Positions 5,302 through 56,540 of a stretch of 64,000 bases of DNA are shown here, in pieces. Every line of letters starts with the position of its first letter. The stretch's first letter is position 1. Position numbers and translations under genes: made by a program. This stretch comes from a virus, in the IMG/VR virus record IMGVR_UViG_3300048444_000173, positions 1 through 64,000 of that record; one strand, given 5' to 3'. A model generated the notes under the pieces. That model saw nothing but the letters and a program-made list of their open reading frames with translations, had not been told where the DNA came from and searched no databases.

Positions 5302-5841
5302 ATGATTAAACTTATCGGCGTTGTTCCAACAGCGCAAGCACAATATAACGAGAACGGGGAACAAGTCTCCCCTGCTCAATACGATGACAAAAGCTATTAC
5401 GCAATCAGCCACGACCGCATAAAGGGTTTAACGGAAATAAGCCCCGACAGACCGTTGCCTAAGTTTGGCTCGAATACGCATTACTACGCATTCACAGACG
5501 AACAAGATGCAAAGACACAGCTCAGCTATGACGAAGAAACTGAGTCATTTAATGTTGAGTTTTATCCTAGCGAGAAAGAGTTTAAGCAATCTCGCCAACA
5601 ACAACTTGACAACGCTGTAGTCACAATTAGCACAGGCAAAAAGTTTGACGCTGATGAATCGAGCATTACGCGCTTAACTAATGCTATTATTGCAGCGCAA
5701 GATGAGCCTGACACGCTTATTCCGTGGTCTTTGGCTGATGATGGTGCGGGTGCTATGACAGAATGCACACAGGCTGAGATACGGGAAGCACATAAGCTTG
5801 CTGTACAGAATATGGCATCAATTTGGAGTGTAGAACAATGA
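5302..5841 (+). CDS. Tail fibre-associated protein with DUF4376-like C-terminus
   Basis: This 179-residue protein begins MIKLIGVVPTAQAQYNENGE. Its C-terminal 80 residues show the DUF4376 layout (DNAVVTISTGKKFDADESS, then TRLTNAI, then EIREAHKLAVQ). Such proteins sit next to phage fibre genes and are thought to help fibre assembly or form a fibre-end part. It overlaps the peptidase gene by ATGA. The family link rests on motif reading only. Confidence 0.5.
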   Translation: MIKLIGVVPTAQAQYNENGEQVSPAQYDDKSYYAISHDRIKGLTEISPDRPLPKFGSNTHYYAFTDEQDAKTQLSYDEETESFNVEFYPSEKEFKQSRQQQLDNAVVTISTGKKFDADESSITRLTNAIIAAQDEPDTLIPWSLADDGAGAMTECTQAEIREAHKLAVQNMASIWSVEQ

Positions 5842-6221
5842 CACAACTAAACTGGCAAGACTATTACCCTGAATTTCAGAAGCATGAGTTTGACTGTAAA
5901 CACACTGGCTTAAACAACATGACCAAAGAGTTTATGGATAAACTTCATGCTCTACGCTTAGCCTATAATAAGCCAATGATTATATCCAGTGGTTATCGTC
6001 ACGAATCCCACCCTATTGAAGCTGAGAAGAGCGTCAGGGGCGAACATACCTATGGGGAATGCTGTGACATAGCTGTTGGATATGAGGACGCTTACGAGCT
6101 TCTTAGGCTTGCATTTGAGCATGGATTTACACGAATAGGTGTCAAACAGCATGACGAGGGCAGATTCATTCACTTAGGAATGAGTGACAAGTTCCCTAAC
6201 CCTAGAGTTTGGAGCTATTGA
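5838..6221 (+). CDS. Endolysin, M15-type peptidase
   Basis: A 127-residue protein of the Peptidase M15/DUF882 kind. The zinc-site residues are visible in order: SGYRHESHP, then EHTYGECCDIAV (His and Asp ligands), then GRFIHLGM (final His). These enzymes cut peptidoglycan cross-bridge peptides. It is small, has no signal peptide, and lies just before holin and spanin genes, so it is most likely the endolysin and needs the holin to reach the wall. The start is the ATG overlapping the previous stop. A tail-lysin role is less likely given the neighbours. Confidence 0.8.
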   Translation: MTQLNWQDYYPEFQKHEFDCKHTGLNNMTKEFMDKLHALRLAYNKPMIISSGYRHESHPIEAEKSVRGEHTYGECCDIAVGYEDAYELLRLAFEHGFTRIGVKQHDEGRFIHLGMSDKFPNPRVWSY

Positions 6222-6222
6222 A

Positions 6223-6295
6223 AATAGCAAGAATATTGCCTATCGGCAAAGTCATACTAGCGTATGCAAGAATCCCCTAGCGGGAATTAGCTATT
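6223..6295 (+). ncRNA. Predicted four-way-junction RNA before the holin gene
   Basis: AATAGC (6223-6228) pairs with GCTATT (6290-6295) and closes three hairpins in 73 nt. Hairpin 1 is TTGCC-TATC-GGCAA (6236-6249). Hairpin 2 is CATAC-TAGC-GTATG (6253-6266). Hairpin 3 is formed around CCC-TAGC-GGG (6273-6285). Each can be capped by a C(UANC)G tetraloop. No U-tract follows. It resembles a tRNA outline but lacks a 7-base anticodon loop and a TTCRANN loop. It may be a processing, stability or translational control element for the holin. Confidence 0.5.
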
Positions 6296-6321
6296 AAAAT
6301 ATACATAAATTGGAGAAAATT

Positions 6322-6531
6322 ATGGTACAAGGTAAGAAGTGGTACAAGAGTAAAGCAATTTGGGGCAGCGTAGTTGCTGTAGTATCTTTAGTTGGTGGTG
6401 CATTCGGCTATACGATTGGTGCAGAAGATCAGGAACTATTAGCTGTGTCCTTATCAGGAATTGGTGTAGCAGCAGGTAATATCCTAGCTGTCTATGGTCG
6501 AGCTAAAGCCAAAGATAAGTTGGAAAAATAA
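6322..6531 (+). CDS. Holin
   Basis: A 69-residue membrane protein. It starts MVQGKKWYKSKAIWGS, has one hydrophobic helix (about residues 14-33) and a second weaker one (44-60), and ends with a lysine-rich tail. This is typical of small phage holins of the KKWYxSKxIWGS type. The ATG at 6322 has GGAG eight bases upstream; an upstream in-frame TTG is not needed. The stop overlaps the spanin start. It permeabilises the inner membrane to release the endolysin. Confidence 0.75.
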   Translation: MVQGKKWYKSKAIWGSVVAVVSLVGGAFGYTIGAEDQELLAVSLSGIGVAAGNILAVYGRAKAKDKLEK

Positions 6532-6755
6532 TGTGGGCTAAATTCAAGTCGTGGATTCTTGGCTTAGTATTCGGAGGGCTTGCTTTGGCGTTATTGCTAT
6601 GGCAAGCCTTTTCGTCTGGAAAGTCGTCACAGAAATCAGATGAGCAAGAGGAGATACTGGACAATGTTAAAAAGGCTAAAGAATCTCGCCAAGATACTAA
6701 CAATATGTCTGACGATGAGCGTATTGAGCGGATGCGTAAGCGTTCCCGTAAGTGA
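6531..6755 (+). CDS. Rz-like inner-membrane spanin
   Basis: 74 residues: a short basic start, one transmembrane helix (residues 8-27, LGLVFGGLALALLLW) and then a charged, predicted coiled-coil periplasmic domain. It overlaps the holin by the TAATG junction and contains the start of the Rz1 gene in another frame. This gene order and topology are those of i-spanins, which with the o-spanin fuse inner and outer membranes at the end of lysis. Confidence 0.75.
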   Translation: MWAKFKSWILGLVFGGLALALLLWQAFSSGKSSQKSDEQEEILDNVKKAKESRQDTNNMSDDERIERMRKRSRK

Positions 6756-6894
6756 ATACTGTATCATAGACTTTCAGATTAAACCTACGCCAGAGGAAAT
6801 TGACAGAGCCTTAGGCGCTAACCTCAAGCCACTTCTCTTGCGTATAGACGAGCATGACACAATGTATGCCGAATTAGGATGTATCAATGAGTGA
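6664..6894 (+). CDS. Rz1-like outer-membrane lipoprotein spanin
   Basis: A 76-residue protein that starts inside the Rz gene in the +1 frame (ATG 6664). It has a basic start (MLKRLKNLAK), a hydrophobic core and the lipobox LSGC ending at residue 24, so the mature protein is a 53-residue lipoprotein. The overlapped arrangement with Rz is the classic spanin pair. Confidence 0.75.
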   Translation: MLKRLKNLAKILTICLTMSVLSGCVSVPVSEYCIIDFQIKPTPEEIDRALGANLKPLLLRIDEHDTMYAELGCINE

Positions 6895-7069
6895 CAAGTT
6901 ACAGGACATAGACATTGAGTATGAAAAATTACGCCTAGAGAACATTAAGCTAAGATATGCGACAAGGAGTTTTGTCGATGCTTATGAACGAGCTATGAGG
7001 GATGGAACTGAGCTACAATTCACTAGGCGTGAGGTGGATAGGATTAAAGCTGTGCAGAATTTATTATAA
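6887..7069 (+). CDS. Small helical protein after the spanins
   Basis: 60 residues, highly charged and almost wholly helical (DIEYEKLRLENIKLRYATRS). It overlaps the end of Rz1 by 8 nt, so it is co-transcribed with the lysis genes. No family recognised. Confidence 0.55.
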   Translation: MSDKLQDIDIEYEKLRLENIKLRYATRSFVDAYERAMRDGTELQFTRREVDRIKAVQNLL

Positions 7070-7124
7070 ATAAATTGAACAGTGCTTATCAGCACAGGGG
7101 ATTCTGTAAAAAGCATATAGGGGC

Positions 7125-7649
7125 TTATTCCTCGCCCCCTTCCTCGTTGCCTTCATTCTCGTAAACTTCCCCCTCTACGGCTTTCTCAGACTCTCCTTTG
7201 CTATCCTCTAGCCCTAAGAACTTGGACAATGCCGCTACCGTAGATTCTCCGCTATCAACAATTAGGGTATTGTTCGTCTGGTTCTGTACCTTTGTGCTGT
7301 AACGATTCGGGTCAGATGCTTTGAGCATAGTTTCGAGCAGCTTATCCGAATACTTCCTCTGTGTCCCTACCTTTTGCCCTTGAAACCAGACATCTTCCTC
7401 TACGCCGTCAACCGCACGTTGATATGCTGCGTCCTCAAGTTTGCCTAAATACCTCGCCTTAGCAATTTCCAATGCCTCCTTGAAATAAGCATCTTTCTCT
7501 GCTAAGCTGTACACAGTTTTCATGCCAACACCTAGTTCACCTGCGGCTCGTGTGACATTACCAGTTCGTTCTAATATTTGTAGGAACTGTTTTTGGCGAG
7601 GTTCAGTCAAAGGTAAATGTGCTGGAGTTTTGTCTACTTCTTTTGTCAT
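7125..7649 (-). CDS. terS: Terminase small subunit
   Basis: 174 residues from the ATG at 7649. It has an N-terminal helix-turn-helix (QKQFLQILERTGNVTRAAGELGVGMKTVYSL) and the segment YSDKLLETMLKASDPNRY, typical of small terminases that bind pac/cos and hand DNA to TerL. The C-terminus is very acidic (GNEEGGEE). It lies convergent to the lysis genes and divergent to the HNH gene. The large subunit is 49 kb away in this window, which is unusual. An upstream in-frame GTG (7715) is possible but has no ribosome site. Confidence 0.8.
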   Translation of the reverse strand: MTKEVDKTPAHLPLTEPRQKQFLQILERTGNVTRAAGELGVGMKTVYSLAEKDAYFKEALEIAKARYLGKLEDAAYQRAVDGVEEDVWFQGQKVGTQRKYSDKLLETMLKASDPNRYSTKVQNQTNNTLIVDSGESTVAALSKFLGLEDSKGESEKAVEGEVYENEGNEEGGEE

Positions 7650-7741: not shown

Positions 7742-8629
7742 ATGTTGAGTCAGGAAGAGTTGCGGGAATTATTTGAGTATGATGAGTCTAGTCCTAGTTG
7801 TTTGCGGTGGAAGGGTCACAAGGTCAAAAGTGTGAACGGCAGACCTGTAGGCTCTTGGTATCCTCGTTATAATAAGTTTATAGCAACAGTAGGTGGTAAG
7901 AAAATACCGCTAGAGTACCTGATGTACCAATTCAAATATGGTGGTATTGAAGATGGCGACACTTTGAGGACTTTGGGTGAACCATCAGACCTAAGAAAAG
8001 AAAACTTAATCTTATATAAAAAAGATTATATTGAGTATTGTTATAACGCTCGAATGAATATGGAGTGGTGGAATGTATTTGACATAAAGGATGGCAAGCT
8101 TTATTGGAAAATACCTAGCTTCGGAGGTAGGAGTAAGGGTAGCCATGTTCGTACAGATATTGGTGAGTCACTCAAATGGAGGTTAAACCAACACGGTTAC
8201 GTTGTTTGTAATATTAGAACCAGAAGTAAGAATCACCATTACTATCATAAAATTATGTGGGAAACTGCGAATGGTAGACCTACTGGTGACAATGAGGTTG
8301 ACCACATTGACAGGGATAAGTTAAATTGTGACCCATCTAACTTACGTTTAGCTACTAGGAATATTAATAGCAGGAACAGAAGCATGAGTGCCAACAACAC
8401 CTCTGGTGTAACTGGTGTTCATTATTCCAAAGATGACTTTTGGACTGCTAGGTATAATGACGCTGATGGTGTCAGGAGATGTAAAAAGTTTTCAGTGAAG
8501 CAGTACGGTTGGGATAAAGCGTTTGAAATGGCTTGCGAATATCGTAAAGAGAAGATAGAATACTTAAACGAAATATATGGTGATGAAGGTTATACAGAAA
8601 CACACGGTTTAAAATTGGAGGATAATTAA
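7742..8629 (+). CDS. HNH endonuclease with AP2-like DNA-binding end
   Basis: 295 residues. The central HNH_3-type core reads HHYYHKIMWETANGRP, then EVDHIDRDKLNCDPSNLRLAT, with the conserved D-H and N residues of the beta-beta-alpha metal site. The C-terminal part (SGVTGVHYSKDDFWTARY, then KKFSVKQYG) matches an AP2-like DNA-binding unit that often follows phage HNH cores. It stops as TAATG at the primase-helicase start, so it was inserted at the head of the replication operon. A free-standing homing endonuclease is the likely nature. Confidence 0.85.
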   Translation: MLSQEELRELFEYDESSPSCLRWKGHKVKSVNGRPVGSWYPRYNKFIATVGGKKIPLEYLMYQFKYGGIEDGDTLRTLGEPSDLRKENLILYKKDYIEYCYNARMNMEWWNVFDIKDGKLYWKIPSFGGRSKGSHVRTDIGESLKWRLNQHGYVVCNIRTRSKNHHYYHKIMWETANGRPTGDNEVDHIDRDKLNCDPSNLRLATRNINSRNRSMSANNTSGVTGVHYSKDDFWTARYNDADGVRRCKKFSVKQYGWDKAFEMACEYRKEKIEYLNEIYGDEGYTETHGLKLEDN

Positions 8630-10524
8630 TGACAGACGAATTAGAAGAAGGTGAATTGTTAGGGCATTATGCTTGCGTTGGTCATGGCGGTAGTGATTCG
8701 TTAGCACTGTACCAACATGAGGACGGAATAAGAGGTTATTGCTTTGCTGAATGTGGGGCAGTTTCAGCTAAGACATTGAAAAAGTGGGAAGTTACTGACG
8801 GTAAAGATGAAGTGTTAGTAGAACCAGCAATTATTACAAGTTCAAAAGGAGGCTCTTTTGTTATGACTGATGAAGTGTTAGCTAAAGTTAATAGTATTCT
8901 CGAAAAGGAAACACACGGTTGGCCTGAGCGCAGAATACCAGCTATTGTTAATGATTTTTATGGTGTTCGTTCAGACGTAGAAGGCTCAGGTAGGGATAAG
9001 GTTTTACTTAAAGAGTATTGTCCTTCTTACGACCAAAATGACGACCTAGTTGGTTGGCACGTTCGTGATGACAAATGCAAAAAAGCCCGAAACGAGGGAC
9101 AGAAAGATTTACCACAACCTTTTTACTCTATTGGTAAAGTTCGTGGTAGTTGTAAAATGTTTGGTCAAAATAAATTTGAGAAAGGTGGTAAGTATTTAGT
9201 TATTGCCTCTGGGCAAGCTGACGCTCGTGCTATCTTTACCGCCCTGAACACAGAGAATGACCATCAGACTAAGCGTACTGTATTAAAGAAATTCCTTACA
9301 CCTATCGTCAGCGTACAGACTGGTGAGGGTAGTATGTCACAGATTAAATCAAACTACGAGTGGATTAGTAGCTTTGAAAATGTAGTAATTATGTATGACC
9401 AAGATGACGCTGGGAAAGAGGGCGCTGAAAAACTAGCTAAGTTACTGAAGCCGGGGCAGGCTAAAATTGCTAAGTATAAGCGCAAAGACGCTTGTGACCA
9501 TTCCAAACGTGGTGAATGGGATGCTATTCGTCAAGCGTTTTGGAAAGCAGAGTCATTCAGTCCTATTGATATTTGCTCACTTGGTCAACTGTGGGATGAA
9601 TTTGAACACGCAGTTGAAGATGATATTATCGAGCTACCTAAAGAATACAGGACTCTTGGTGGAATGATGGGTGGTGGCTTTCGTGCAGGACAGATCACAA
9701 TGTTGTTAGCCTATACTAGCGTTGGGAAAAGTACCCACTTAAACCGTATTGCTTATGACGCTGCTATTCGACAAGGTAAGAAGGTGGGTTTAGTTTATTT
9801 GGAAAGTAGTCCTCGTGAATTAGTAGAAGGATTCTTAAGTATTCACTCCAAAACCAACTTGACTCATTTACGTAGAGAAGAAATGAATATGGGAATGCTA
9901 AAGAATCAATTTCAAGATATGATTGGTAAGGATGATAATATATTGTCCGTTAACCATCACGGTTCTTTCACAAGTGTTGACGATATGTTCAATAAAATCC
10001 GCTGGTTGATTAAAGCTATGGGTTCTCAACTTGTGCTGATAGATCCTCTGCAACAGGCGGTGCCGAATAACGAGAATCAGGTTGTTGAGGAATTTATGGA
10101 TAAATTGCTTAAATTGGTTAAAGAGACTGGTGCTCATATTATTGTTGTTTCTCATATGAAGAAACCTTCTGACACAAACCCTCATAATGTTGATGAATAT
10201 GGGTCAAAGGGTAGTAGTGCAATTAACCAAGTAGCGTTCAACTCAATCTTAATAAGCAGGGACAAGACACACGACAATGCTAAAGTCAGAAATGCTACTA
10301 AACTAACTTTAGTAAAGAACCGCACATTGGGTATTACTGGTGATGCAGGGTGGGTATCTTATAATCCAGATACAACTGAAATTAAAGAGGTTGCTAACCC
10401 GTATGATTCACTTGACGAACCAGATGAGACATTATTTGGTGGTGATGTAGACGTGGGCGAACAAGACTACGACAAAGTTGAAGAACAAGAATCTAGTCAA
10501 GATTGGGAGGTTGTTGATGAGTGA
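8629..10524 (+). CDS. Primase-helicase, T7 gp4-like
   Basis: 631 residues. Residues 15-45 hold a zinc-binding-like unit (CVGHGGSD, then GYCFAECG). The TOPRIM primase region has YLVIASGQADARAIF and VVIMYDQDDAGKEGAEKL. The C-terminal RecA/DnaB-type helicase has Walker A AYTSVGKST, then VGLVYLESS, Walker B QLVLIDPL and IIVVSHMKKP. It would synthesise primers and unwind DNA at the fork. The end overlaps the DNA polymerase gene by 8 nt, so the two replisome enzymes are translationally coupled. Confidence 0.9.
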   Translation: MTDELEEGELLGHYACVGHGGSDSLALYQHEDGIRGYCFAECGAVSAKTLKKWEVTDGKDEVLVEPAIITSSKGGSFVMTDEVLAKVNSILEKETHGWPERRIPAIVNDFYGVRSDVEGSGRDKVLLKEYCPSYDQNDDLVGWHVRDDKCKKARNEGQKDLPQPFYSIGKVRGSCKMFGQNKFEKGGKYLVIASGQADARAIFTALNTENDHQTKRTVLKKFLTPIVSVQTGEGSMSQIKSNYEWISSFENVVIMYDQDDAGKEGAEKLAKLLKPGQAKIAKYKRKDACDHSKRGEWDAIRQAFWKAESFSPIDICSLGQLWDEFEHAVEDDIIELPKEYRTLGGMMGGGFRAGQITMLLAYTSVGKSTHLNRIAYDAAIRQGKKVGLVYLESSPRELVEGFLSIHSKTNLTHLRREEMNMGMLKNQFQDMIGKDDNILSVNHHGSFTSVDDMFNKIRWLIKAMGSQLVLIDPLQQAVPNNENQVVEEFMDKLLKLVKETGAHIIVVSHMKKPSDTNPHNVDEYGSKGSSAINQVAFNSILISRDKTHDNAKVRNATKLTLVKNRTLGITGDAGWVSYNPDTTEIKEVANPYDSLDEPDETLFGGDVDVGEQDYDKVEEQESSQDWEVVDE

Positions 10525-14412: not shown

Positions 14413-14438
14413 TCGTCAATAATATTACCCTAATAATT

Positions 14439-14466
14439 GGGCGGCATTGTGTCGCCCTTTTCGTTT
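14439..14466 (+). terminator. Rho-independent terminator after SSB
   Basis: GGGCG (14439-14443) pairs with CGCCC (14453-14457), followed by TTTTCGTTT. It ends the SSB transcript just before the endonuclease-like gene. Confidence 0.7.
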
Positions 14467-14493
14467 ATGTGGAGGTATGATTTGGGACGGACT

Positions 14494-15726
14494 ATGAATC
14501 CAAAGGACATAGAGGATAAATATAAAGGTAGACTTCTTCAAAAGTTTGGTGACAATTATATTTTTACAAACTTCGAAAAAGAGGGCAACGGAGCTTTTAG
14601 TGTAGATGTTTTTTGCAAGATCCATAATACCCACCACAGGAGCAGGATTAGTAATTTACTATTAAAATATAAATACTGTTGCCCTACCTGTAAAAAAGAA
14701 GCTAGGGCTGAGAATGATAAGAAAAGGGGTCTCAAGATCATTCAAGAACGCCTAGTGGATAAATTTGGGACAAATATAACATTAGACCAGAGTACCTTTG
14801 TAAGCACCCAAAAAGAGGCTAAGTTCAAATGTGAAAAACATGGCGAATTTTTAGCTAAACCTGCTAATGTGGTAGCTAGTAAAAACGGATGTTTTGAATG
14901 CACCAGAGGTTATAAACCTAATGGTAGTAATGGGTTAAAGTACACAACAGAATCTTATATTAATGCTTGTAAGGAAGTCCACGGGCATAAGTACGATTAT
15001 AGTAAGACGGAGTATAGGGGTTGCGCTCACAAGGTTACTATAATTTGCCCCACGCATGGCGAATTTAAAACCGACGCCAATGTCCACTTAAAAGGACACC
15101 ATTGTAATAAATGTGCAAATATCAGTTTTGGCTTGAAAACTAGGAAGTGGAGCACTGACTACTTCATCCAGAAAGCCACTGAGACGCATGGAGGCAAGTA
15201 TGACTACTCTAACACCATTTGTGGAAGATGTGATGATGTAGTTAAAATAGGATGTAGGGAACACGGCATGTTTTCTCAAATTGCTTACAACCATGTTCTT
15301 GGTAAGGAAGGATGTAAAGACTGTCTCGAAAGAGATGTACTAGAACCTTATTTCAAGAAACATGATGACTCTCACATTTATTTAATGAGGGTAAATGGCA
15401 ATGGTGAGGATTTCCTGAAGATAGGTATTTCCATAAACCCCGCACACAGGAAGCATGAGATTGCACATGACGTAGAAAATCAATATAAGGTAGAAATTAT
15501 CAAGCAAGTACAAGACTATTCGAGGAGGGTTTGGTTATTTGAAAAAAGAATACATGAGTCACCACTGTTCAAAAAGTATATTCCTAAGTTGAGTTTTGGT
15601 GGCATGACAGAGTGCTATGATTTATCTGAATTAGATTCATTCATAGGTTATTTTAACAAATTTGAAAGTAAGGTGGGGTATGGGAAAGAAAATACCGAAT
15701 TTTGGTCTCGTTTTGATAGACGGTGA
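14494..15726 (+). CDS. Zinc-ribbon plus GIY-YIG-like endonuclease-like protein, copy 2
   Basis: About 410 residues, the longest of three paralogues. Several repeats of the form CxxHGEF...H..GC..C (CEKHGEFLAK, NGCFECT; CPTHGEFKTD, HHCNKC; CREHGMFSQ, GCKDC) probably bind zinc. The C-terminal unit HIYLMRVNG, FLKIGISINPAHRKHEI resembles the T5orf172/GIY-YIG-like domain. ATG 14494 is the simplest start; TTG at 14482 has the better spacing from GGAGG. It is inserted between SSB and exonuclease genes and overlaps the latter. Confidence 0.6.
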   Translation: MNPKDIEDKYKGRLLQKFGDNYIFTNFEKEGNGAFSVDVFCKIHNTHHRSRISNLLLKYKYCCPTCKKEARAENDKKRGLKIIQERLVDKFGTNITLDQSTFVSTQKEAKFKCEKHGEFLAKPANVVASKNGCFECTRGYKPNGSNGLKYTTESYINACKEVHGHKYDYSKTEYRGCAHKVTIICPTHGEFKTDANVHLKGHHCNKCANISFGLKTRKWSTDYFIQKATETHGGKYDYSNTICGRCDDVVKIGCREHGMFSQIAYNHVLGKEGCKDCLERDVLEPYFKKHDDSHIYLMRVNGNGEDFLKIGISINPAHRKHEIAHDVENQYKVEIIKQVQDYSRRVWLFEKRIHESPLFKKYIPKLSFGGMTECYDLSELDSFIGYFNKFESKVGYGKENTEFWSRFDRR

Positions 15727-18657: not shown

Positions 18658-19029
18658 ATGGAATTCAAACGAGAAGAGCGTTATATTGTAATCAAACGTA
18701 AGCATTTACCCTTTTGGAAAGAATCCCAACTACGTACGGTCATGGAGGATTTTGGTATAGAACCTTTAGAATGTGTTGTCGTAGAAAAAGGATTACCTAA
18801 CTACGAACAAACGTGGAGAGATTTGGAAAAAGTTTACCACGGTGAATATGCTGATAATGAAAAACGGGATTCACTCTTAGCTCATGTAGAACAGCTCTTA
18901 GATGAAATTTCCGCTGAGATTTTCAACAATACTGATATTACACAGCAGACTGGTAATCTATACCAATACGCCATCCTTGCCGATAAGCTAGTAGAATCAA
19001 TCAGAGAGGAGAACCTTAATGCTAAATAA
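18658..19029 (+). CDS. Unknown 123-residue protein
   Basis: Begins MEFKREERYIVIKRKHLPFW, three bases after the MazG-like stop with GGAGGAAAT upstream. Mixed alpha/beta start, helical second half. Overlaps the phosphoesterase gene by 11 nt. Similar short proteins of the form YIVxKxxHL occur in phages; no function assigned. Confidence 0.7.
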   Translation: MEFKREERYIVIKRKHLPFWKESQLRTVMEDFGIEPLECVVVEKGLPNYEQTWRDLEKVYHGEYADNEKRDSLLAHVEQLLDEISAEIFNNTDITQQTGNLYQYAILADKLVESIREENLNAK

Positions 19030-20056
19030 TTATCCAGAATGGCTACCACAAGCTATTGAGCTATTAGATACAGGCATGAGTAAACGTGCTATTGCTCGTG
19101 AGCTAGATATTGGGCGTACATCCTGTCGTGAATGGTTGAGTAAGTTTGAGGATGGGTTGATTGGTGAGGTTCGTGTTGCCGAGCCTGTTGAGCCTAGAAT
19201 TGTAGAAGAAGTTACTGCAATCAATATCACCAAAGATGTTTACCCTATTGAAACGACAAAAGTGGTTGAACCTGACGTAACTCACTTAATGATACCTGAC
19301 ACGCAATGTAAACCAAATATTGACATGACTTATTTAGACGTGCTTGGGCAATATATTGTCGATAAGCAACCAGAGGTTATTGTTCATATTGGCGACCATG
19401 CTGATATGCCGTCCTTGTCCTCTTACGATAAAGGTAAACGTACTGCCGAAGGTAAACGAGTGCAGCATGATATTGAATCATCCATTGAGGGTATGAATCG
19501 TTTACTTAAACCCTTGCATGACTTACAACAGCAACAGTTAGAGCAATTTGGGCGAGTATTGTACAAGCCTAAGATGGTACTGACACTCGGTAATCACGAA
19601 CAGCGTATTGAACGTCACGTAGATGCTAACCCAGAGCTTCACGGTTTCTTATCTTACGATAGTTTACGCTATAAAGATATGGGGTGGGAGGTCTACGACT
19701 TCTTACAACCAGTAATCATAAATGGCGTGAGTTATGTGCATTACATGGCTAATCCTATGTCGGGCAAGCCATACGGCGGTCAGGCTATGAATGTGTTAAA
19801 GAATGTAGGCGAGTCATTCTGTATGGGACATAAGCAAACATTGGATATTGCCACACGTTTCTTACCCTCATCTGGCAAACAACAGTGGGCTATTATCGCT
19901 GGTGCATATTATGAGCATGAGGAAGCATATAAAGGTCATCAGGGTAATCACCATTGGCGTGGTATTGTTGTTAAGCACAATGTTCGTGACGGTACATTTA
20001 ACCCAATGTTTGTTAGCTTAGAATATTTGAAGAATCGTTATGGAAAAGAAATTTAA
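19019..20056 (+). CDS. HTH plus calcineurin-like metallophosphoesterase
   Basis: 345 residues. Residues 5-45 form a helix-turn-helix (AIELLDTGMSKRAIARELDIGRTSCREWL). The catalytic part has MIPDTQC, VHIGDHADMPS, LTLGNHEQRIERH and a late GHQGNHHWRG, the metal-binding blocks of the calcineurin-like superfamily. Phage relatives sit in replication operons and may act on DNA or nucleotides. The HTH-phosphoesterase fusion suggests DNA targeting. The end overlaps the next endonuclease-like gene by 17 nt. Confidence 0.75.
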   Translation: MLNNYPEWLPQAIELLDTGMSKRAIARELDIGRTSCREWLSKFEDGLIGEVRVAEPVEPRIVEEVTAINITKDVYPIETTKVVEPDVTHLMIPDTQCKPNIDMTYLDVLGQYIVDKQPEVIVHIGDHADMPSLSSYDKGKRTAEGKRVQHDIESSIEGMNRLLKPLHDLQQQQLEQFGRVLYKPKMVLTLGNHEQRIERHVDANPELHGFLSYDSLRYKDMGWEVYDFLQPVIINGVSYVHYMANPMSGKPYGGQAMNVLKNVGESFCMGHKQTLDIATRFLPSSGKQQWAIIAGAYYEHEEAYKGHQGNHHWRGIVVKHNVRDGTFNPMFVSLEYLKNRYGKEI

Positions 20057-20825
20057 TTACTTGAAGCGACTTAGGCATCACAATACAGACAAGCACGGAA
20101 GCTACTCTGTATATGAATGTTGTATTTGTGGTAATACAAAGACTATATGTGACTATAGCGTTAAGAGTGGCGCAACTAGGTCTTGTGGGTGCATGGCTAG
20201 ATTAATTCCAGTAAATGATTACACAGGTGAAATGGTCAATGGCGTCGAGATAATAGGTTACATTGGTAAATCTTTATGGCGTGTTAGGTTCTCCTGCGGT
20301 CACTATGGGGACGTCCAAATAGGCTTAGTTAAAAACAGGAAGAATCCAGAATGTAATCACTGCGTTAAAAGTAAGCTAGTAATCCAAAGAAACACCAAGC
20401 ATGGTTGTTGCAATAAAGGTAACTTAACTTATACATCTTGGCTATCAATGAGAAGGAGATGTTACGATAAGTCTAACAATAGGTATCAAGAATATGGAGC
20501 AAGGGGTATATCCGTATGTGAAGAATGGCGCAATGACTTTTCTAAATTCTTAGAGGATATGGGTGAGAGACCTAGTGTAAACTATTCTATTGACAGGATT
20601 GATACCAATGGTGACTACACACCAGAAAATTGCAAATGGTCTGATAGGGTAGAACAAGCAAATAACAAGCGCAATGTTAGGTTAATAACAAATGGCGCTG
20701 AGAGTAATAGTCTTATGTATTGGTGTAAACGACTCAACATTGACTACAAAAGGGCTTGGTATTTAACTAAAAATAAAGGTGTTGACATTAAAGAGGTGCT
20801 GGGTGAAAATTACAGATATGTTTAA
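20040..20825 (+). CDS. Endonuclease-like protein of the YGARGI/SIDRID family
   Basis: 261 residues. The N-terminal half has paired cysteines (CCICGNTK, RSCGC; CGHYG, CNHC) likely to bind zinc. The C-terminal half carries SWLSMRRRCYDKSNNRYQEY, GARGISVCEEW, SIDRIDTNGDYTPENCKW and EQANNKRN, a pattern common in free-standing phage genes annotated as HNH-like or homing endonucleases. It lies about 300 bp upstream of the intron-containing nrdA gene. Nuclease activity is not shown by a classic HNH signature, so the call is by family resemblance. Confidence 0.6.
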   Translation: MEKKFNYLKRLRHHNTDKHGSYSVYECCICGNTKTICDYSVKSGATRSCGCMARLIPVNDYTGEMVNGVEIIGYIGKSLWRVRFSCGHYGDVQIGLVKNRKNPECNHCVKSKLVIQRNTKHGCCNKGNLTYTSWLSMRRRCYDKSNNRYQEYGARGISVCEEWRNDFSKFLEDMGERPSVNYSIDRIDTNGDYTPENCKWSDRVEQANNKRNVRLITNGAESNSLMYWCKRLNIDYKRAWYLTKNKGVDIKEVLGENYRYV

Positions 20826-21116: not shown

Positions 21117-23623
21117 ATGATTGAAACCGTTGTAAAGCGAGATGGAACAGAAGAAGCGTTTGATGCAGGTAAGCTAAATAAGTGGGCGGAGTTTGCAACA
21201 GAACAAGGCGGCGACTGGTCGGAGATTGCACGACAAACCTTTAAGAAATTACCAGCTAAATGTACGAGCAAAGACATTCACCAGACGATGATTGACGTAT
21301 GCTTATCTAAACAAACTATTGAATACAGCCGTGTAGCTTCACGCTTAGAGCTTGCTGAGCTACGTAAAGCGATGAATTATTTACTTAACATCGACCCGTT
21401 TGATAATTCATTCAAAGACATTATGCAAACTTATGAGGACTTAAATATATGGGATAGTGGCGTTATGCCTGAATATAACCCAGAGTGGGAGAACTGGTAT
21501 AATGAATTGAAAGAATATCGTATGGAGTTTTGGCGTATAAAACAGTGGACGGATAAGTATTCACAGCAACTTGATGATAACCCTGTTGAGACTCCTGCAC
21601 TTGGTTATATGGGTATCGCTCTAGCGTTATTTGGCGACTCTGAGAAGGCTTATGAATTTGCTAAGGGTCTTACACTCGGTAAGATTAGTTTGCCTACTCC
21701 TGCTCTTAATGGTTTACGTAATGGTGATTGGGACACAATCTCTTGTTGTGTTATTTCAGCAGATGATACAACTGAAAGTATTGGTGTGGCTAATTGGATC
21801 GCATATCGTATGACAGCTAAAAAGGCTGGCATTGGTATTGAATATACAACTCGCTCTAAAGGAGATAACGTCAAAGGTGGTCGAGTCAAACACTTAGGTA
21901 AACACCCTATTTATAAATGCTTAGACCGTGAGGTTAAGGTACTGACTCAGATTACTCGTGGTGGTAATGCAACAGTTACGGCATTAGCTATCGACCCAGA
22001 AATTGAGGATATTATCTTATGGCGTTCACAGCGTAAAGACATCGAGACTCGTATTGATAAGTTGGATAATGAATTTGGTTATAATGATGCGTTTGTTGAT
22101 GCTGTTGTAGGTAATAAGGATTGGCACTTATTTAGTTATGGTGATGCGCCAGACGTTTACAAAGCATTTTATAAGGCTAACGTAGAGGACTATAACAAGG
22201 TTGTTGATGAGCATATTAAACGGGGAGTTAAGCACAAAACTGTTAAAGCTCGTGATTTACTTAAAACATTTTTAACTGTGCGTCAAGAAACTGGTCGATT
22301 TTATGACAACAACTTAACCCGAACTAATACGCATACGCCTTTTATTGATACAATTAAGCAAAGCAATCTGTAAAATAGTGCAGCCCTATTTAGGAATAGA
22401 TAGGTGAAGAATCCTGTGAATTGCTGGAAACCTAAACGTGTTATGACGTAGGCAATCAGCAGCTAAGCTTGGAACATAGTTCCTTGAAAGTTCAGAGGTC
22501 ATCTCGCAAGAGAGTAGGAGTCAAGTGATTCCGAAGCGCAGGACAACCAGAACGGTTGATGATATGATCCGACACCCGTTGAAAAGCGGGAGAGACGTAA
22601 CGAATCTCGTAACAGTGTGGCGAAGAAATTTGCTTACCAACAAAAGGTTATAAGTCAATGCAAGACCTTTATTCCCCAGAGAGTGAAGGTGAAACAGCAT
22701 TCTGTAGCTTGTCTGCTATCAACGTTGCTAACGTAGCCTTAGATGAGTACGAGCGTGTTGCAGAGCTAGTATTAGAAGCTGTAGATATTATGATTGATAA
22801 TGCCCCAATGATGACAGAATCAATGAAAGCGGATATTATGCGTAGGCGTAGTGTTGGAGTCGGTATCACTGGACTAGCAAGTGCTATGTATAGTAATGGT
22901 TACGATTATGATGGGAGTGACGAGTCCTTAGAGTTTGTGCAAAAAATAGCTGAACACCATTATTTCTATTTACTAAAAGCTAGTCAGAAATTATCTGAAC
23001 GTGATGGTTTTTGTGTAGAAGGTGTGAACTTAGATTGGCTACCAGTCGATACTGCTATAAGTAATTCTATAACAAATTTAGATTGGGAATCGTTGCGAGG
23101 GAAACCACGCAAGCACAGCGTACTTGTCGCTAATATGCCTACTGAGAGCAGTAGTCTTTTGAGTGGCAAAACCAATTCGTTGTACCCTGTGCGTAAGAAA
23201 GTCATCAATAAACGTAGTCGAAAAGGGCTGGTGCAATTCATTTGTCAGGAATTTGACCCAGATAAACATTTAAGTGCTTGGGATGTTGATAATATTACTT
23301 TATCCAAGTACTATTCACACATTCAGGATTTCACTGACCAAGCGATTAGTGCTGACTTCTACTTTAATCCTATGAAGTACGAGGATGAAAAAGCACCATT
23401 GTCAGTCCTGATGAAAGAGTGGGTTGCTCATGCTAAACTGGGTAACAAAACTAAGTATTACCTTAACACGAACGATGACAACGGTGGTTCTTTCCAAGAC
23501 CAGACCAAAAAATCTAAAGGGGTCGAGTCTTACCTTTCGCCAGAAAAACCAATTAAGGAGATCGTCAACGGTCTTGAGGTGGAAGCAGAAGAAGATGGTT
23601 GTCAGGGCGGTTGTAAATTATAA
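21117..23623 (+). CDS. nrdA: Ribonucleotide reductase large subunit, split by a group I intron
   Basis: Exon 1 is 21117-22371 and exon 2 is 22620-23623; joined they give 2,259 nt, 752 residues, in frame. Exon 1 starts with an ATP-cone-like region (VVKRDGTEEAFDAGKLNKW) and ends at IKQSNL. Splicing completes a Cys codon to read SNLCEEICLPT, so N417, C419 and E421 form the N-x-C-x-E radical site of class I enzymes. Partner Cys residues are in DTISCCVIS and GETAFCSLS, the radical-path YY in KYYLNTN, and a C-terminal CQGGC redox pair. Unspliced translation stops right after exon 1. nrdB follows 11 nt downstream. Confidence 0.92.
22372..22619 (+). other. Group I intron (248 nt, no ORF) in nrdA
   Basis: P1: exon CUGU pairs with intron GCAG, leaving U-G at the 5' splice site; the intron ends in G. 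Core pairings are visible: P3 UCCUGUG/CGCAGGA, P5 CCUA/UAGG, the P4 Q-strand AAUCAGCAGC, P6 arm GGAAC/GUUCC, P7 GGUCAU with AUGAUCC, extra P7.1/P7.2 hairpins (UCUC-GCAA-GAGA; GGAGUC..GAUUCC), P8 AACC/GGUU and P9 CCCG/CGGG. The P7.1/P7.2 insertions fit subgroup IA. No endonuclease is encoded inside. The insertion lies between bases 1 and 2 of the catalytic cysteine codon. Confidence 0.9.
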
Positions 23624-23634
23624 GGAGTGAAAAT

Positions 23635-24708
23635 ATGACAGTATTTAATGCAAACAACAAAGGTTTTGAAACTAAGAAATATCCTCTCTTTTTCGGAGAG
23701 GAGCTTGGTTTATTTGATACGGTAAATGTTGCTTACCCAGAGGTTGATAAGCTATACCATCAACAAATGAGCCAGATTTGGAATCATGCGGAGGTGTCAC
23801 TAGACCAAGACAAGATGGATATGCAACGTCTGCCAAATGAAGTTGTTGACTTAATGGTTAAAACATTGAGCTGGCAACACTTGGCTGATTCTGTTGCGGC
23901 ACAATCAATCAGTACCCTATTGCTGCCCCATTGTACGAATAGTGAACTTGAAGCCATGTTGACAGCACAGAGTTTGTTTGAGTGCATTCATGCCATGACC
24001 TATTCCCATATAGTTCAGCAGACGTTTTCTGATCCAAATAAAATGCTCAAAGATACCTATGAAAACACACATACACTCATTCGTTCACAAGCTATAGTTA
24101 AGGCGTTTGATGATGTCCAAGCATTACCTCAAGATGCTGACATTGAGGAAAAGCGTAAGGTTCTTATGAAAGCCTTTGTTGCGCTATTTGCACTAGAAGG
24201 TATTGCCTTTATGTCGTCCTTTGCTGTGACATTTGCTATTGCGGAGACGGATGTGTTTCAAGGGATTGGTGCATTGGTTGCGCTCGTATGCCGTGATGAG
24301 GTCCTTCATACAAGAATGGACTATACTGTTCTTGACTATATGCTTAAAGACTCTGACTGGCAAACAGCCTTGAGCGAGAGCAAGGATGAAATTAAACAGA
24401 TATTGGATGACGTTACACAACAGGAGTTAGACTGGTCTGAGTATTTATTCAGCGAAGGTCGCCAAGTAGTGGGGTTAAATGAAACCTTACTAAAAGAATA
24501 TGTTCAATTTATGGCTAAACCTATCTACGACTTCTTAGGCGTGGAATATAAATTTGAAAATATTGCAGAAAATCCTTTACCTTATATGGAAAAGTATGTT
24601 GACCCTAGCCAGATGCAATCAGCCGCTCAGGAGATAAACATTACGTCCTACAAGGTTGGTTCAATTAAGGACGACACAACCGACCTAGACTTGGACTTTG
24701 ACCTTTAA
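23635..24708 (+). CDS. nrdB: Ribonucleotide reductase small subunit
   Basis: 357 residues. Iron and radical residues can be placed: D85 (HLADSV), E116 and H119 (SLFECIHAM), radical Y123 (MTYSHI), E188 (ALEGIAF), E222 and H225 (RDEVLHTRM). The numbering is almost identical to E. coli NrdB (D84, E115, H118, Y122). The acidic C-terminus (DDTTDLDLDFDL) would dock to NrdA. Together they make dNDPs for phage DNA. A strong terminator follows. Confidence 0.93.
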   Translation: MTVFNANNKGFETKKYPLFFGEELGLFDTVNVAYPEVDKLYHQQMSQIWNHAEVSLDQDKMDMQRLPNEVVDLMVKTLSWQHLADSVAAQSISTLLLPHCTNSELEAMLTAQSLFECIHAMTYSHIVQQTFSDPNKMLKDTYENTHTLIRSQAIVKAFDDVQALPQDADIEEKRKVLMKAFVALFALEGIAFMSSFAVTFAIAETDVFQGIGALVALVCRDEVLHTRMDYTVLDYMLKDSDWQTALSESKDEIKQILDDVTQQELDWSEYLFSEGRQVVGLNETLLKEYVQFMAKPIYDFLGVEYKFENIAENPLPYMEKYVDPSQMQSAAQEINITSYKVGSIKDDTTDLDLDFDL

Positions 24709-53419: not shown

Positions 53420-53872
53420 TTATTCCTCCAATTTGTAAATGTAAACGTCATATTCTCCCAAATACCACTCAATCAATTCTAGCACAATTTCCCAATCACC
53501 ACCAGCCCTATCTGACGCAAATTTATAAGGAAAAGCTACTTTGACGTTAGGTGTTAGCTTAAGCTCATTACGAATATTAATTAGTCCCTGACATAATGCA
53601 CCGTAACTAAGATGGCGTTTATCTGTGCCATAATAAAATTGTCCGTATAAATTCACCACACCACCTTCGCTAAACCAAGCCGAGCCTAATTTATTCTTGC
53701 TATTATTGTAGCACCAAGTATCTAGCGCATAAGCGTCAGGACATTCGCGCTTAATTTGTCGTGCAATGCCGCTACCAAATTTATTTTGGCAATTACAACA
53801 GTGAACTAGCCAGTCAACATCGCCTCGTTTTACTGCTTTTACAGCATCGCCTTTGACGTAAGTAATGGGCAT
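53420..53872 (-). CDS. Macro-domain protein (ADP-ribose-1''-phosphatase-like)
   Basis: 150 residues, one macro domain. HCCNCQNKFGSGIARQI gives the ADP-ribose-binding NxxGxG region, NLYGQFYYGT and SYGALCQGLINI follow, and KFASDRAGGDWEIVLELIE ends the pattern, as in Poa1p-type enzymes. Those remove the phosphate from ADP-ribose-1''-phosphate, a by-product of tRNA 2'-phosphate removal. That suits a phage with RNA-repair genes, but removal of ADP-ribose from proteins or DNA is also possible. Confidence 0.85.
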   Translation of the reverse strand: MPITYVKGDAVKAVKRGDVDWLVHCCNCQNKFGSGIARQIKRECPDAYALDTWCYNNSKNKLGSAWFSEGGVVNLYGQFYYGTDKRHLSYGALCQGLINIRNELKLTPNVKVAFPYKFASDRAGGDWEIVLELIEWYLGEYDVYIYKLEE

Positions 53873-53908
53873 AAGTTATTCCTCCAAGATCATTTCAACA
53901 GAGCCTAG

Positions 53909-53937
53909 AGTATAATTTAGTTATAGCGTTATGTCAA
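53909..53937 (-). promoter_or_regulatory. Strong sigma70 promoter, leftward
   Basis: TTGACA (53937-53932), 17 bp, TATACT (53914-53909). It heads the macro domain, exonuclease and dNMP kinase operon. Confidence 0.75.
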
Positions 53938-54146
53938 GCGATTAGGTCTACAAAAGGTGTATAAATTTAGTAACGTAATGTAGACTAGGTGATACCATTG
54001 TAGCAATTATGGCGTAAAATAGGATATAATTACCACTATTGTAACAACTATGGGATATTTAGGTAGGTTTACTTAGGCAGGAATATGCGGTAATAATTGG
54101 CGTGAGTTTAGGATATAGTAAACTTTGGTACTGATAGTACGGTCAT
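53938..54146. other. Gene-free AT-rich stretch
   Basis: About 200 bases without a coding frame. It contains loosely repeated words (GTAGCAATTATGGCGTAA, TTGTAACAACTATGGGATAT) reminiscent of the 25-bp repeats at 37.1-37.4 kb, but too diverged for certainty. Confidence 0.35.
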
Positions 54147-54176
54147 AAAGAAAAGCCCCAACATTGCGTCAGGGCT
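54147..54176 (-). terminator. Terminator, leftward, after the tRNA transcript
   Basis: On the minus strand AGCCCT (54176-54171) pairs with GGGGCT (54159-54154), followed by TTTCTTT. Confidence 0.65.
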
Positions 54177-54216
54177 GACCCGAGAGGAAATTTGTTAGAT
54201 GTATTCTGTACTCATA

Positions 54217-54279
54217 TTAGGCTCCAGTAAATCCACCAACTAAAGGATCATCCCAAACACCCACTTCACTCATTTTCAT
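54217..54279 (-). CDS. Possible 20-residue peptide
   Basis: AAGGAGAAATAAT gives a very good ribosome site before ATG 54279. The peptide is MKMSEVGVWDDPLVGGFTGA. It is the only frame between the tRNA and the terminator. Too short to be sure. Confidence 0.35.
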   Translation of the reverse strand: MKMSEVGVWDDPLVGGFTGA

Positions 54280-54371
54280 ATTATTTCTCCTTAATTTATT
54301 TGCAAATAATTAAAGCAGGGACACTCGACCAAGAATACGCTCAATCCTTATTCCCTATTATCCTTACGGAA

Positions 54372-54479
54372 GTGGTATGACGTGTCTCTCTGACGTGATC
54401 TGCTAGGCCATACACCACAGCGTCAGATTTACAACATGACACTACTAGCTCTAATCGCTAAATGTGAGAGGTTGTAAAT
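54372..54479 (-). ncRNA. Probable structured RNA downstream of the tRNA
   Basis: Two long stems lie in a stretch without genes. ATTTACAAC and GTTGTAAAT (54479-54471 with 54435-54427) pair over 9 bp. GTGGTGTATG and CATACCAC (54418-54409 with 54379-54372) pair over 8 bp with a small bulge. On the minus strand the stretch is in the path of the tRNA-Arg transcript. No RNA family is recognised; further weak pairing continues to about 54310. Confidence 0.45.
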
Positions 54480-54483
54480 ACGT

Positions 54484-54559
54484 TGGCGTTCCTACTAGGA
54501 CTTGAACCTAGACCACAAACTTAGAAGGATTGTATGCTTTCCAATTACACTATAGGAAC
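54484..54559 (-). tRNA. tRNA-Arg (anticodon UCU)
   Basis: 76 nt including an encoded CCA end. Acceptor GTTCCTA/TAGGAAC pairs fully. D stem GTGT/GCAT has two G-U pairs. The anticodon loop CTTCTAA gives UCU; its stem has one T-T mismatch. T arm CTAGG-TTCAAGT-CCTAG is perfect. It reads AGA codons, which are rarer in many GC-balanced gammaproteobacteria, so it could aid phage translation, or replace a tRNA cleaved by the host. Confidence 0.93.
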
Positions 54560-54567
54560 GAATTAGC

Positions 54568-54589
54568 CCTACAGATTACGCACTGTAGG
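54568..54589 (-). promoter_or_regulatory. Perfect hairpin upstream of tRNA-Arg
   Basis: CCTACAG and CTGTAGG are inverted repeats with an eight-base loop, 9 bp before the tRNA 5' end on the minus strand. Perhaps a processing signal in the tRNA precursor. Confidence 0.5.
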
Positions 54590-54641
54590 CTGCGGCATCA
54601 TTACTGCGGAGGAGACAACGGCGATGCAACCGTGATTGATA

Positions 54642-54767
54642 TTAGCCCTCACCGCGTTTCGTCTTATTGTATGGGCGCTTATAATTCGCCCCAGAATTAG
54701 CACGATTACCCCATGCTTGATTGACGAAAACGTGTTCATAAGCCTTACGGCGTTCATCTTGTGTCAA
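54642..54767 (-). CDS. Small basic protein, 41 residues, TTG start
   Basis: GAGGAG lies eight bases before TTG 54767. The peptide starts (fM)TQDERRKAYEHVFVNQAWGN and ends in a basic NYKRPYNKTKRGEG tail. Fits between the methyltransferase and the tRNA. Function unknown. Confidence 0.45.
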   Translation of the reverse strand: MTQDERRKAYEHVFVNQAWGNRANSGANYKRPYNKTKRGEG

Positions 54768-54825
54768 AGTATTTGCTCCTCATTTGTTCGTGATGTTAGT
54801 TTGACAATGTTATTCAGGGTTAGTT

Positions 54826-55614
54826 TCATGCGTTGTTAATTCGTTCTTTGGCTATATTAAAATAGTCTTGGTCAAGCTCAATACCAATAAAGTTTCGGTT
54901 TAAATTCTTAGCCGCTGCGCCAGTTGTTCCTGAACCCATAAATGGGTCTAAGACTACATCATTACTTTCTGTCATTAGTTTGATAAAGAACTCTGGTAAA
55001 TACAACGGGTAAACCGCAGGATGACCTATGTTAGCATTACTTGAGCTACCTGTTATGACATTAGATGGTCTAACCGTGTCGCTCGAAATCCTTTTACTCA
55101 TGTTCATTCCAGACCCATTGTTAGTATTATGCTCGCCATTGTTCTTTCTGCGCTTTTCAGATGCAAGCCACTTGGAATCTGATTTCACTAAAACTTTCTC
55201 TGGGTAAAACTTGTAAGACTTCGATTTGGAAAAATGAAGTACTCGCTCGTAGGCATCTTTCAATCTCTTCTTGCTACCTGTTGGGAACGGGTTAGTCTTA
55301 TTCCAAATGTATTCGTCAACCAACCTCCATCCATAGTTTTCAACCATTTCGATTATCAACTTATACACGTATAGTTCGCGCTGACCATCTTTGCAATTTT
55401 CTTTTATGTTCAGAATCAACGAACCTGTTTCCTTTAACTTGTCTTTGCATAAATTCAATATGGGATGAAGGAATGAACCATACTCAGATACACTATAACC
55501 AGTGTAACTCCTCTGCTTTGCATAAGGAGGGCTTGTAACTATTAAGTCAACTGACCCATCAGGAATTTCTTTCATGACCTCTAAGCAATCGCCCTGCCGC
55601 AAATCTATATTCAT
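54826..55614 (-). CDS. DNA methyltransferase, N4-C/N6-A type
   Basis: 262 residues. The catalytic motif IV is DLIVTSPPYAKQRSY and the AdoMet-binding motif I, DPFMGSGTTGAAA, lies near the C-terminus, the beta-class order. TSPPY is usual in N4-cytosine enzymes but also in N6-adenine ones, so the modified base is open. A ribosome site GGAGG precedes the ATG. No cognate nuclease is adjacent, so it is probably a solitary phage enzyme that protects from host restriction. Confidence 0.88.
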   Translation of the reverse strand: MNIDLRQGDCLEVMKEIPDGSVDLIVTSPPYAKQRSYTGYSVSEYGSFLHPILNLCKDKLKETGSLILNIKENCKDGQRELYVYKLIIEMVENYGWRLVDEYIWNKTNPFPTGSKKRLKDAYERVLHFSKSKSYKFYPEKVLVKSDSKWLASEKRRKNNGEHNTNNGSGMNMSKRISSDTVRPSNVITGSSSNANIGHPAVYPLYLPEFFIKLMTESNDVVLDPFMGSGTTGAAAKNLNRNFIGIELDQDYFNIAKERINNA

Positions 55615-55724: not shown

Positions 55725-56540
55725 TTATGCTTTAGTCCAGTCTTTATCTGGCGCATATCGTTCTCGTAATGCTTTAGCAACACGTTCGTCTGATTGTTCA
55801 TCAGCAAGTTGACAAGCGAGTTCGTGTTTGCGAGCTTGCCATACTTTGTGTGCTTCCATTGGGTCGTCGAAAGCACCCAACCGCTCAGCTTTACCAGTGA
55901 ACGGGTTACCACACCTTGCAATAAATCTATTTTCTTTTTTACATAAGCTCGCACCAATAGGGTAAACTCCTACATTAGAAGGATATATGGCGAATAAGTT
56001 AGTTTTGGTGTCTACAAAAGCACAGTAATCTGGACAATAGACCTTGTTTCCTCTTTTTATAATATCTTTGTCTAAAGCCAACCCTTCCCATTCTCTTTTT
56101 GTGACCCAATCCCTGAATTTTGTGAAATAAAGCCACTCGTCACAAACTGTGACATCTTTATACACTGGTGCTGTTTTAAGACCTTTCTCTGAATAACAAC
56201 GTCTTATCATTCCTCTCCATTTGTCATAGATAGGGCAGCTTTTCACTTCACCATCTTGATAGAACCGATTCTTGTGTTCCGTATCACAAATACCGACTCC
56301 GTGTATTTTATTCAACCCTCCGTTCGCATTCTTTTTGGTTTTTATATAAGGGTCTTTGAAGCAGCCGTTTTTAAAATGCCTACAGTCAACGATATAACGG
56401 TGTCCACTCTCGACTTCTATTAAGCAATTTTTAAAGTTGATATATTCGACAAGTTTGCCAACGGAACCATTGTGGGATTCAACCACCATGCCTTCTCTTT
56501 CTGATTTCTGTTTAAGTCTACGCTCTTCTCTCCAGTCCAT
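55725..56540 (-). CDS. Endonuclease-like protein beside terL
   Basis: 271 residues. YDKWRGMIRRCYSEKG, PVYKDVTVCDEWLYFTKF, LDKDIIKRGNKVYCPDYC and the end FGxLGAFD-like FRERLGAFDDPMEA-type region (KAERLGAFDDPMEAHKVWQA) are the marks of a large group of free-standing phage HNH-like endonucleases, with an AP2-like last part. It has its own promoter and follows terL, which holds a group I intron, so it could be the intron's mobility enzyme acting in trans. Confidence 0.65.
   Translation of the reverse strand: MDWREERRLKQKSEREGMVVESHNGSVGKLVEYINFKNCLIEVESGHRYIVDCRHFKNGCFKDPYIKTKKNANGGLNKIHGVGICDTEHKNRFYQDGEVKSCPIYDKWRGMIRRCYSEKGLKTAPVYKDVTVCDEWLYFTKFRDWVTKREWEGLALDKDIIKRGNKVYCPDYCAFVDTKTNLFAIYPSNVGVYPIGASLCKKENRFIARCGNPFTGKAERLGAFDDPMEAHKVWQARKHELACQLADEQSDERVAKALRERYAPDKDWTKA

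Follow-up and report, generated by a model that had tools for sequence, protein, structure and literature searches.

A group IA intron, free of any reading frame, in the catalytic cysteine codon of a phage nrdA gene, a site that other phages fill with introns and inteins

Results

An intron within the radical-site codon

Nucleotides 22,372–22,619 of the window are a group I intron in nrdA, confirmed here to the nucleotide. By the window we mean the whole stretch analysed, positions 1–64,000 of an IMG/VR virus record that is 82,362 bases long and possibly incomplete. Our fuller reading, to which we give a probability of about 0.95, is that the element is a self-splicing group IA intron, free of any open reading frame (ORF), which interrupts a class Ia phage nrdA just past the T of its catalytic Cys codon (Table 1). 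Exon 1 runs into a stop at codon 419 and exon 2 opens at 22,620; joined without the 248 nt between them, they give an uninterrupted NrdA of 752 aa reading QSNLC^EEICLPT. The joined protein matches the RNR barrel (PF02867, 4e-77) and carries the N-x-C-x-E site, with matches to the ATP-cone and all-alpha domains that fall just below the Pfam cut-offs. It aligns with solved class Ia R1 chains (E. coli-type) at QSNLC.EI, and the split codon is therefore that of the radical-site cysteine, which we take to be the equivalent of E. coli Cys439.

The splice sites are fixed by the joined frame, by natural intron-free alleles, and by a P1 with its U.G pair together with the final omega-G at 22,619. Alleles that read straight through SNLC occur in the metagenomic contig L044/L066 (NrdA 71% identical) and in Acinetobacter phage phiAB441. 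In an Rfam cmscan, RF00028 (group I catalytic intron) matched 22,360–22,591 on the plus strand with 64.7 bits (E 4e-14; gathering score 50 bits), the match beginning 12 nt within exon 1 and ending short of the true 3' end of the intron. The preliminary description of this DNA had placed a 248-nt group I intron between two NrdA halves, had its removal join T and GC into the Cys of SNLCEEI in frame, and had named a covariance-model search as a check; the boundaries proved exact, all the pairings that it listed can be drawn, and the model score agrees. Its further claim, that the nucleotide supply of the phage depends on splicing, stands in part. We found no other RNR large-subunit gene in the 82-kb record (possibly incomplete), and unspliced mRNA stops at codon 419, just before the Cys, but a host RNR could substitute. 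The phage may thus depend on nrdA splicing, and splicing in vivo is itself predicted from the sequence.

Table 1. Features of the window discussed in the text
Feature	Position	Strand	Evidence or remark
HNH homing-endonuclease-like gene, free-standing, upstream of nrdA	20040–20825	+	phrog_374 8.9e-48
nrdA exon 1 (codons 1–418 plus T of Cys419 codon)	21117–22371	+	on joined protein: PF02867, and ATP-cone just below cut-off
P1: exon CUGU 22368–22371 / internal guide sequence (IGS) GCAG 22380–22383, U.G at splice site	22368–22383	+	10/10 copies
In-frame stop TAA spanning 5' splice junction	22371–22373	+	stop in 10/10 copies
ORF-less group IA intron, 248 nt, last base omega-G	22372–22619	+	RF00028 64.7 bits; exon join; empty alleles
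5' part of IGS for P10: UAGU with exon 2 GCGA 22620–22623	22376–22379	+	one mismatch
P2 hairpin	22385–22404	+	
P3: 22412–22418 / 22537–22543	22412–22543	+	two-sided changes in 5/7 pairs, ten copies
P4 (22421–22426 / 22457–22462) around P5 (22431–22434 / 22449–22452)	22421–22462	+	
P6a hairpin	22471–22483	+	
P7: GAGGUCA 22495–22501 / UGAUCC 22565–22570	22495–22570	+	guanosine-site G-C kept; two adjoining pairs compensated
P7.1 hairpin, subgroup IA feature	22502–22513	+	
P7.2 hairpin, subgroup IA feature	22517–22532	+	
P8 hairpin	22544–22558	+	
P9 (22575–22590) and P9.1 (22592–22608)	22575–22608	+	
nrdA exon 2 (GC of Cys419 to stop)	22620–23623	+	
nrdB, RNR small subunit	23635–24708	+	PF00268 3.4e-41; 3' of nrdA
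HNH homing-endonuclease-like gene, immediately downstream of terL	55725–56540	-	phrog_953 3.9e-73
Second ORF-less group I intron, 232 nt, in terL Walker A codons (LAGRG-F^-GKT)	57771–58002	-	RF00028; exon join

Fold and covariation

The window intron can be drawn with P1, P2, P3, P4, P5, P6a, P7, P7.1, P7.2, P8, P9 and P9.1, and its unconstrained minimum-energy fold (-74.3 kcal/mol, z -2.5) already holds P2, P3, P4, P5, P7.1, P7.2, P8 and P9. When a hand-drawn group IA structure was scored on five homologs from the same site, 91.1% of the cells were paired, and 35 of the 65 pairs showed two-sided changes, against 15.0 +/- 2.7 in shuffles and 2–11 in slid controls. The core (P1, P3, P4, the start of P5, P7 and P8) could be compared in ten homologs, with 299 of 300 cells paired (99.7%) and two-sided changes in 14/30 pairs (shuffles 7.3 +/- 1.6, slid controls 0–1). 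P7.1 and P7.2, which appear in the free fold and partly covary among the homologs, lie between P7 and P3, as is characteristic of subgroup IA.

At P7 the window has GAGGUCA/UGAUCC where eight copies have GAGACUA/UAGUCC: both partners are exchanged in two pairs, and a further pair becomes G.U. The swapped pairs are common to the window and Shewanella phage 1/4, and the guanosine-site G-C pair does not vary among the ten copies. P1 is CUGU/GCAG in every copy, its U.G lying at the 5' splice site. Its CUG is provided by the Leu codon preceding the insertion site, which is CTG in 10/10 intron alleles versus 2/22 empty ones. P10 follows the sequence of exon 2 (GCGA/UCGU, GCCA/UGGU, GUCA/UGAU or UGAC), with 4/4 pairs in each of nine copies as against 3/4 in the window copy, where one G.A mismatch occurs. 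This mismatch may reflect a recent change of context or a slightly weaker choice of 3' site, and together with the G.U beside the P7 guanosine site and the short, 4-bp P1 it makes the splicing efficiency of the window copy uncertain.

We can outline how splicing would proceed. The last four exon bases, CUGU, would pair with the intron guide GCAG, a guanosine bound in P7 would attack after the U, and the freed exon end would then attack after omega-G, making a Cys codon from T and GC. Unspliced message would yield only a 418-residue NrdA that lacks the active site. The opposite view is that nothing is spliced, the gene being either broken or expressed as two polypeptides that assemble as in Aeromonas phage Aeh1, whose NrdA is functional in two pieces (PMC2988022). 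GenBank annotation of cultured phages with the same intron could be read in that way, as it gives the NrdA halves as separate genes (separate proteins are listed for Shewanella phage 1/4, R16F and J2-1) or leaves nrdA unannotated. We hold this view to be highly improbable: the catalytic Cys codon is itself split, with neither half encoding the Cys, and compensatory change conserves the intron structure while the exon frames stay intact across the copies read, which is not expected of decay. On the spliced reading, automatic annotation has put two broken NrdA proteins, neither with the catalytic Cys codon, in place of one enzyme.

A stop codon across the 5' splice junction

An in-frame stop codon spans the 5' splice junction of each of the ten copies of the intron: seven use TAA, two TGA and one TAG. 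A second intron type that lies 2 nt away in other phages (intron B, below) likewise starts with TAA or TGA, the junction in Lactococcus phage AM5 reading TGT|TAA, and the terL intron described below has an in-frame TAA at its junction as well. The bases concerned lie outside P1 and P10, so the structure gives no explanation for them. According to a review (PMC3984707), stops in frame with the preceding exon are regarded as a device that stalls ribosomes and thereby lets the intron fold. A ribosome on the unspliced nrdA message would halt at the UAA astride the splice site and so stay outside the intron, and the junction stop may in this way aid splicing through ribosome exclusion. Its retention as TAA, TAG or TGA would be a clean comparative sign that such exclusion matters.

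The same nucleotide in other phages

Nine further introns occupy the same nucleotide, four in uncultured and five in cultured marine phages, with intron-free sister genes between them. RF00028 also scores above its cut-off in the metagenomic homologs L045, L062, L064 and L091, and the contig L045/L065, which carries the same-nucleotide intron, comes from the same metagenome as the intron-free L044/L066. The cultured phages emerged from a search with the L083 copy: Vibrio phages R16F (240 nt) and PWH3a-P1 (232 nt), Pseudoalteromonas phages J2-1 (221 nt) and HM1 (222 nt), and Shewanella phage 1/4 (248 nt). Their introns share with that of the window the kind of ribozyme, the Cys nucleotide, P1 and the junction stop, and contain no internal ORF of at least 50 residues. 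They differ from it in having a complete P10, and they are 51–62% identical to it in a multiple alignment; the NrdAs that they interrupt share only about 34% identity with that of the window. The open-licence literature that we searched yielded no paper describing an intron at this nrdA site. The intron is thus already in public records of cultured marine phages, unremarked, and elements of such a kind are well known.

A wider search gathered about forty phage NrdAs covering the Cys-codon region, and most of them have an empty Cys codon. The window, L065, L077, L083 and L091 carry intron A, after the T (T^GC or T^GT); intron B (TGT^), 2 nt away, was found in L072, L073, L074 and L058, and also in the nrdE of Lactococcus phage AM5, where it has a GIY-YIG gene inside. 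Inteins at SNL^C occur in L081, L103, L088 and L059 and likewise in Vibrio phage JSF6, while CB7 and SPbeta have inteins at the same Cys and introns at other places. The nrdA Cys codon is therefore a hotspot of mobile elements, with two intron types and inteins. Several candidates were set aside in drawing up this comparison. The introns of Twort nrdE, Brochothrix A9 nrdE, SPbeta and CB7 are no same-site precedents, all being located elsewhere (in Brochothrix A9, as in SPbeta and CB7, it is an intein that sits at the Cys), and the intron's blast matches in phages of Flavobacterium, Alteromonas and Escherichia belong to the same ribozyme kind but lie in polymerase or thyX genes. Intron versus exon identity as a sign of faster spread was dropped, since the pairwise identities are gap-inflated (shuffled introns score 0.74 when compared in that way).

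On the NrdA tree, the five rows with intron A call for five separate changes, each one imposed by branches with good support; empty sisters stand beside L065 (100/100), L077 (100/99) and L083 (92/84). One could instead suppose vertical descent with many losses: an intron could be lost precisely when its gene recombines with an intron-free allele, the tree does not separate gain from loss, and precise losses rather than gains could explain part of the patchy distribution. As a general account we consider vertical descent improbable, given the five forced changes inside the sampled tree, the copies in NrdA proteins only about 34% identical, and the pair L076/L077, whose exon divergence is concentrated beside the site, as co-conversion or allele exchange predicts. 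That pair differs at 40/300 positions in the stretch from 180 nt before the site to 120 nt past it, against 30/800 farther out (p 9e-8, with bins picked after inspection), a hint of such exchange; the signal is clear in L076/L077 and weak in L069/L072. Our preferred reading is that an intron lineage would have passed by horizontal transfer between highly dissimilar phage nrdA genes, entering each at the same nucleotide.

Several related contigs carry further insertions. In L083/L064 (IMGVR_UViG_3300035637_000015) a second one lies early in exon 2, some 60–550 nt past the nrdA intron, with a short segment that resembles the N-terminal part of an intein (LYSEDYYTGEIEVETEDG...EEGDEIWEIL*), a frame whose start is GIY-YIG-like, and then MKVKKILSKSQQ-SETAFC, where NrdA resumes; it is too short for a normal intein. 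L068 (IMGVR_UViG_3300035492_000045) has at 5,782–7,536 an intein-like insertion with an HNH-like ORF in an overlapping frame; it falls within the conserved MPTESS loop, a region of NrdA that holds introns in pYD6-A and Twort. The L091 record (IMGVR_UViG_3300033997_000035, 128 kb) is unusually intron-rich, with seven RF00028 matches, four of them within 1.6 kb (53,740–55,301).

How the intron might move

Nothing inside the intron could move it. Its spread would have needed either an endonuclease from another gene or the general recombination of phages. The closest candidate for such an endonuclease is the HNH gene directly upstream of nrdA, which in a collaborative-homing scheme would cut intron-free nrdA at the Cys codon and carry intron and gene along together. 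Arrangements of this type are documented for phage psbA and T7-like introns (PMC3984707, PMC10448857), and several relatives have HNH genes of that broad family no farther than about 4 kb from nrdA. The gene, however, starts at 20,040, overlapping the 3' end of a phosphoesterase gene (19,019–20,056), and L076 and L083 have related HNH genes at the corresponding point of the phosphoesterase gene; in L076 the nrdA site, about 3 kb distant, is empty. In L102 an HNH gene immediately precedes an nrdA whose site is empty, L045, L091 and most of the intron-bearing cultured phages lack a close HNH relative beside nrdA, and the HNH relatives share only about 30% identity. Across relatives, then, endonuclease and intron do not show the linkage expected of collaborative homing. 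We identified no nuclease that cuts the nrdA Cys site, and we rejected the HNH gene as mobiliser of the intron; it belongs more probably with the phosphoesterase gene, and collaborative homing by it appears unlikely.

A different route, which we mention as something of a long shot, would use the endonuclease of a rival element, three kinds of selfish element contending for one catalytic codon. An intein nuclease or the GIY-YIG enzyme of intron B would cut intron-free nrdA at the Cys codon, repair from an intron-bearing phage would install the ORF-less intron, and the intron would then protect the site against both.

Two other stretches of the window resemble homing-endonuclease genes, 8,186–8,650 (+; ORF 7,742–8,629) and 14,437–15,726 (+). 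Taken together with the two HNH genes of Table 1, they match phrog_374/681/953; the match near 8,186–8,650 runs only across stops, and this gene may be decayed or mis-framed. In L058, some 750 nt interrupt a metallo-phosphoesterase gene (177–1,676) toward its 3' end, not far from the HNH positions in the window, L076 and L083.

A second intron, in terL

The sole RF00028 match in the record besides that in nrdA falls at 57,822–58,065 on the minus strand (65.3 bits). The P1 of the model lies here in the exon; the frame and a 7-bp P1 (CGUGGGU/GCUCACG) put the intron at 58,002–57,771, and distant terminases are uninterrupted at its site. No terL relatives were found among the nrdA-related contigs, and the comparison is for that reason with distant terminases only. 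Introns in phage terL are already known (PMC7344957, PMC10448857, PMC3606486).

Comparison with known systems

One of the closest known arrangements is that of AM5 nrdE, shared by L058 and L072–L074, where a group I intron splits the gene at the same Cys codon and also has an in-frame junction stop. It differs from the window intron in its position, after the third base of the codon (TGT^), and, in AM5, in carrying a GIY-YIG endonuclease gene. In SPbeta, Vibrio phage JSF6, CB7 and others, NrdA/NrdE inteins sit at exactly the same Cys (SNL^C), but they leave from the protein, unlike the window intron, which is predicted to leave from the RNA. Other phage RNR introns belong to the same ribozyme class (Twort nrdE, SPbeta nrdE, Pseudoalteromonas phage pYD6-A nrdA, T4 nrdB), with insertion sites that differ from that of the window: NrdE codons ~240 and ~587 in Twort, ~240 in SPbeta and NrdA ~598 in pYD6-A. 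The Twort introns are reported to be self-splicing (PMC3653736), and the nrd and terL introns of phage CB7 have been shown by RT-PCR to be spliced (PMC7344957).

As to mobility, the collaborative homing of T7-like phages and cyanophages (Zeng 2009; Bonocora and Shub 2009, both cited in PMC3984707) pairs an ORF-less intron with a free-standing endonuclease nearby, as is also seen in the window; unlike in those systems, the neighbouring endonuclease of the window does not track the intron.

The window intron is ordinary for phage RNR genes, and it is the comparison around it that is useful. In closely related phages the radical-Cys codon holds introns at two nucleotides or inteins at a third, or is empty, which makes it a natural series for studying how an intron without a nuclease spreads and whether occupation of a site shields it against rival elements.
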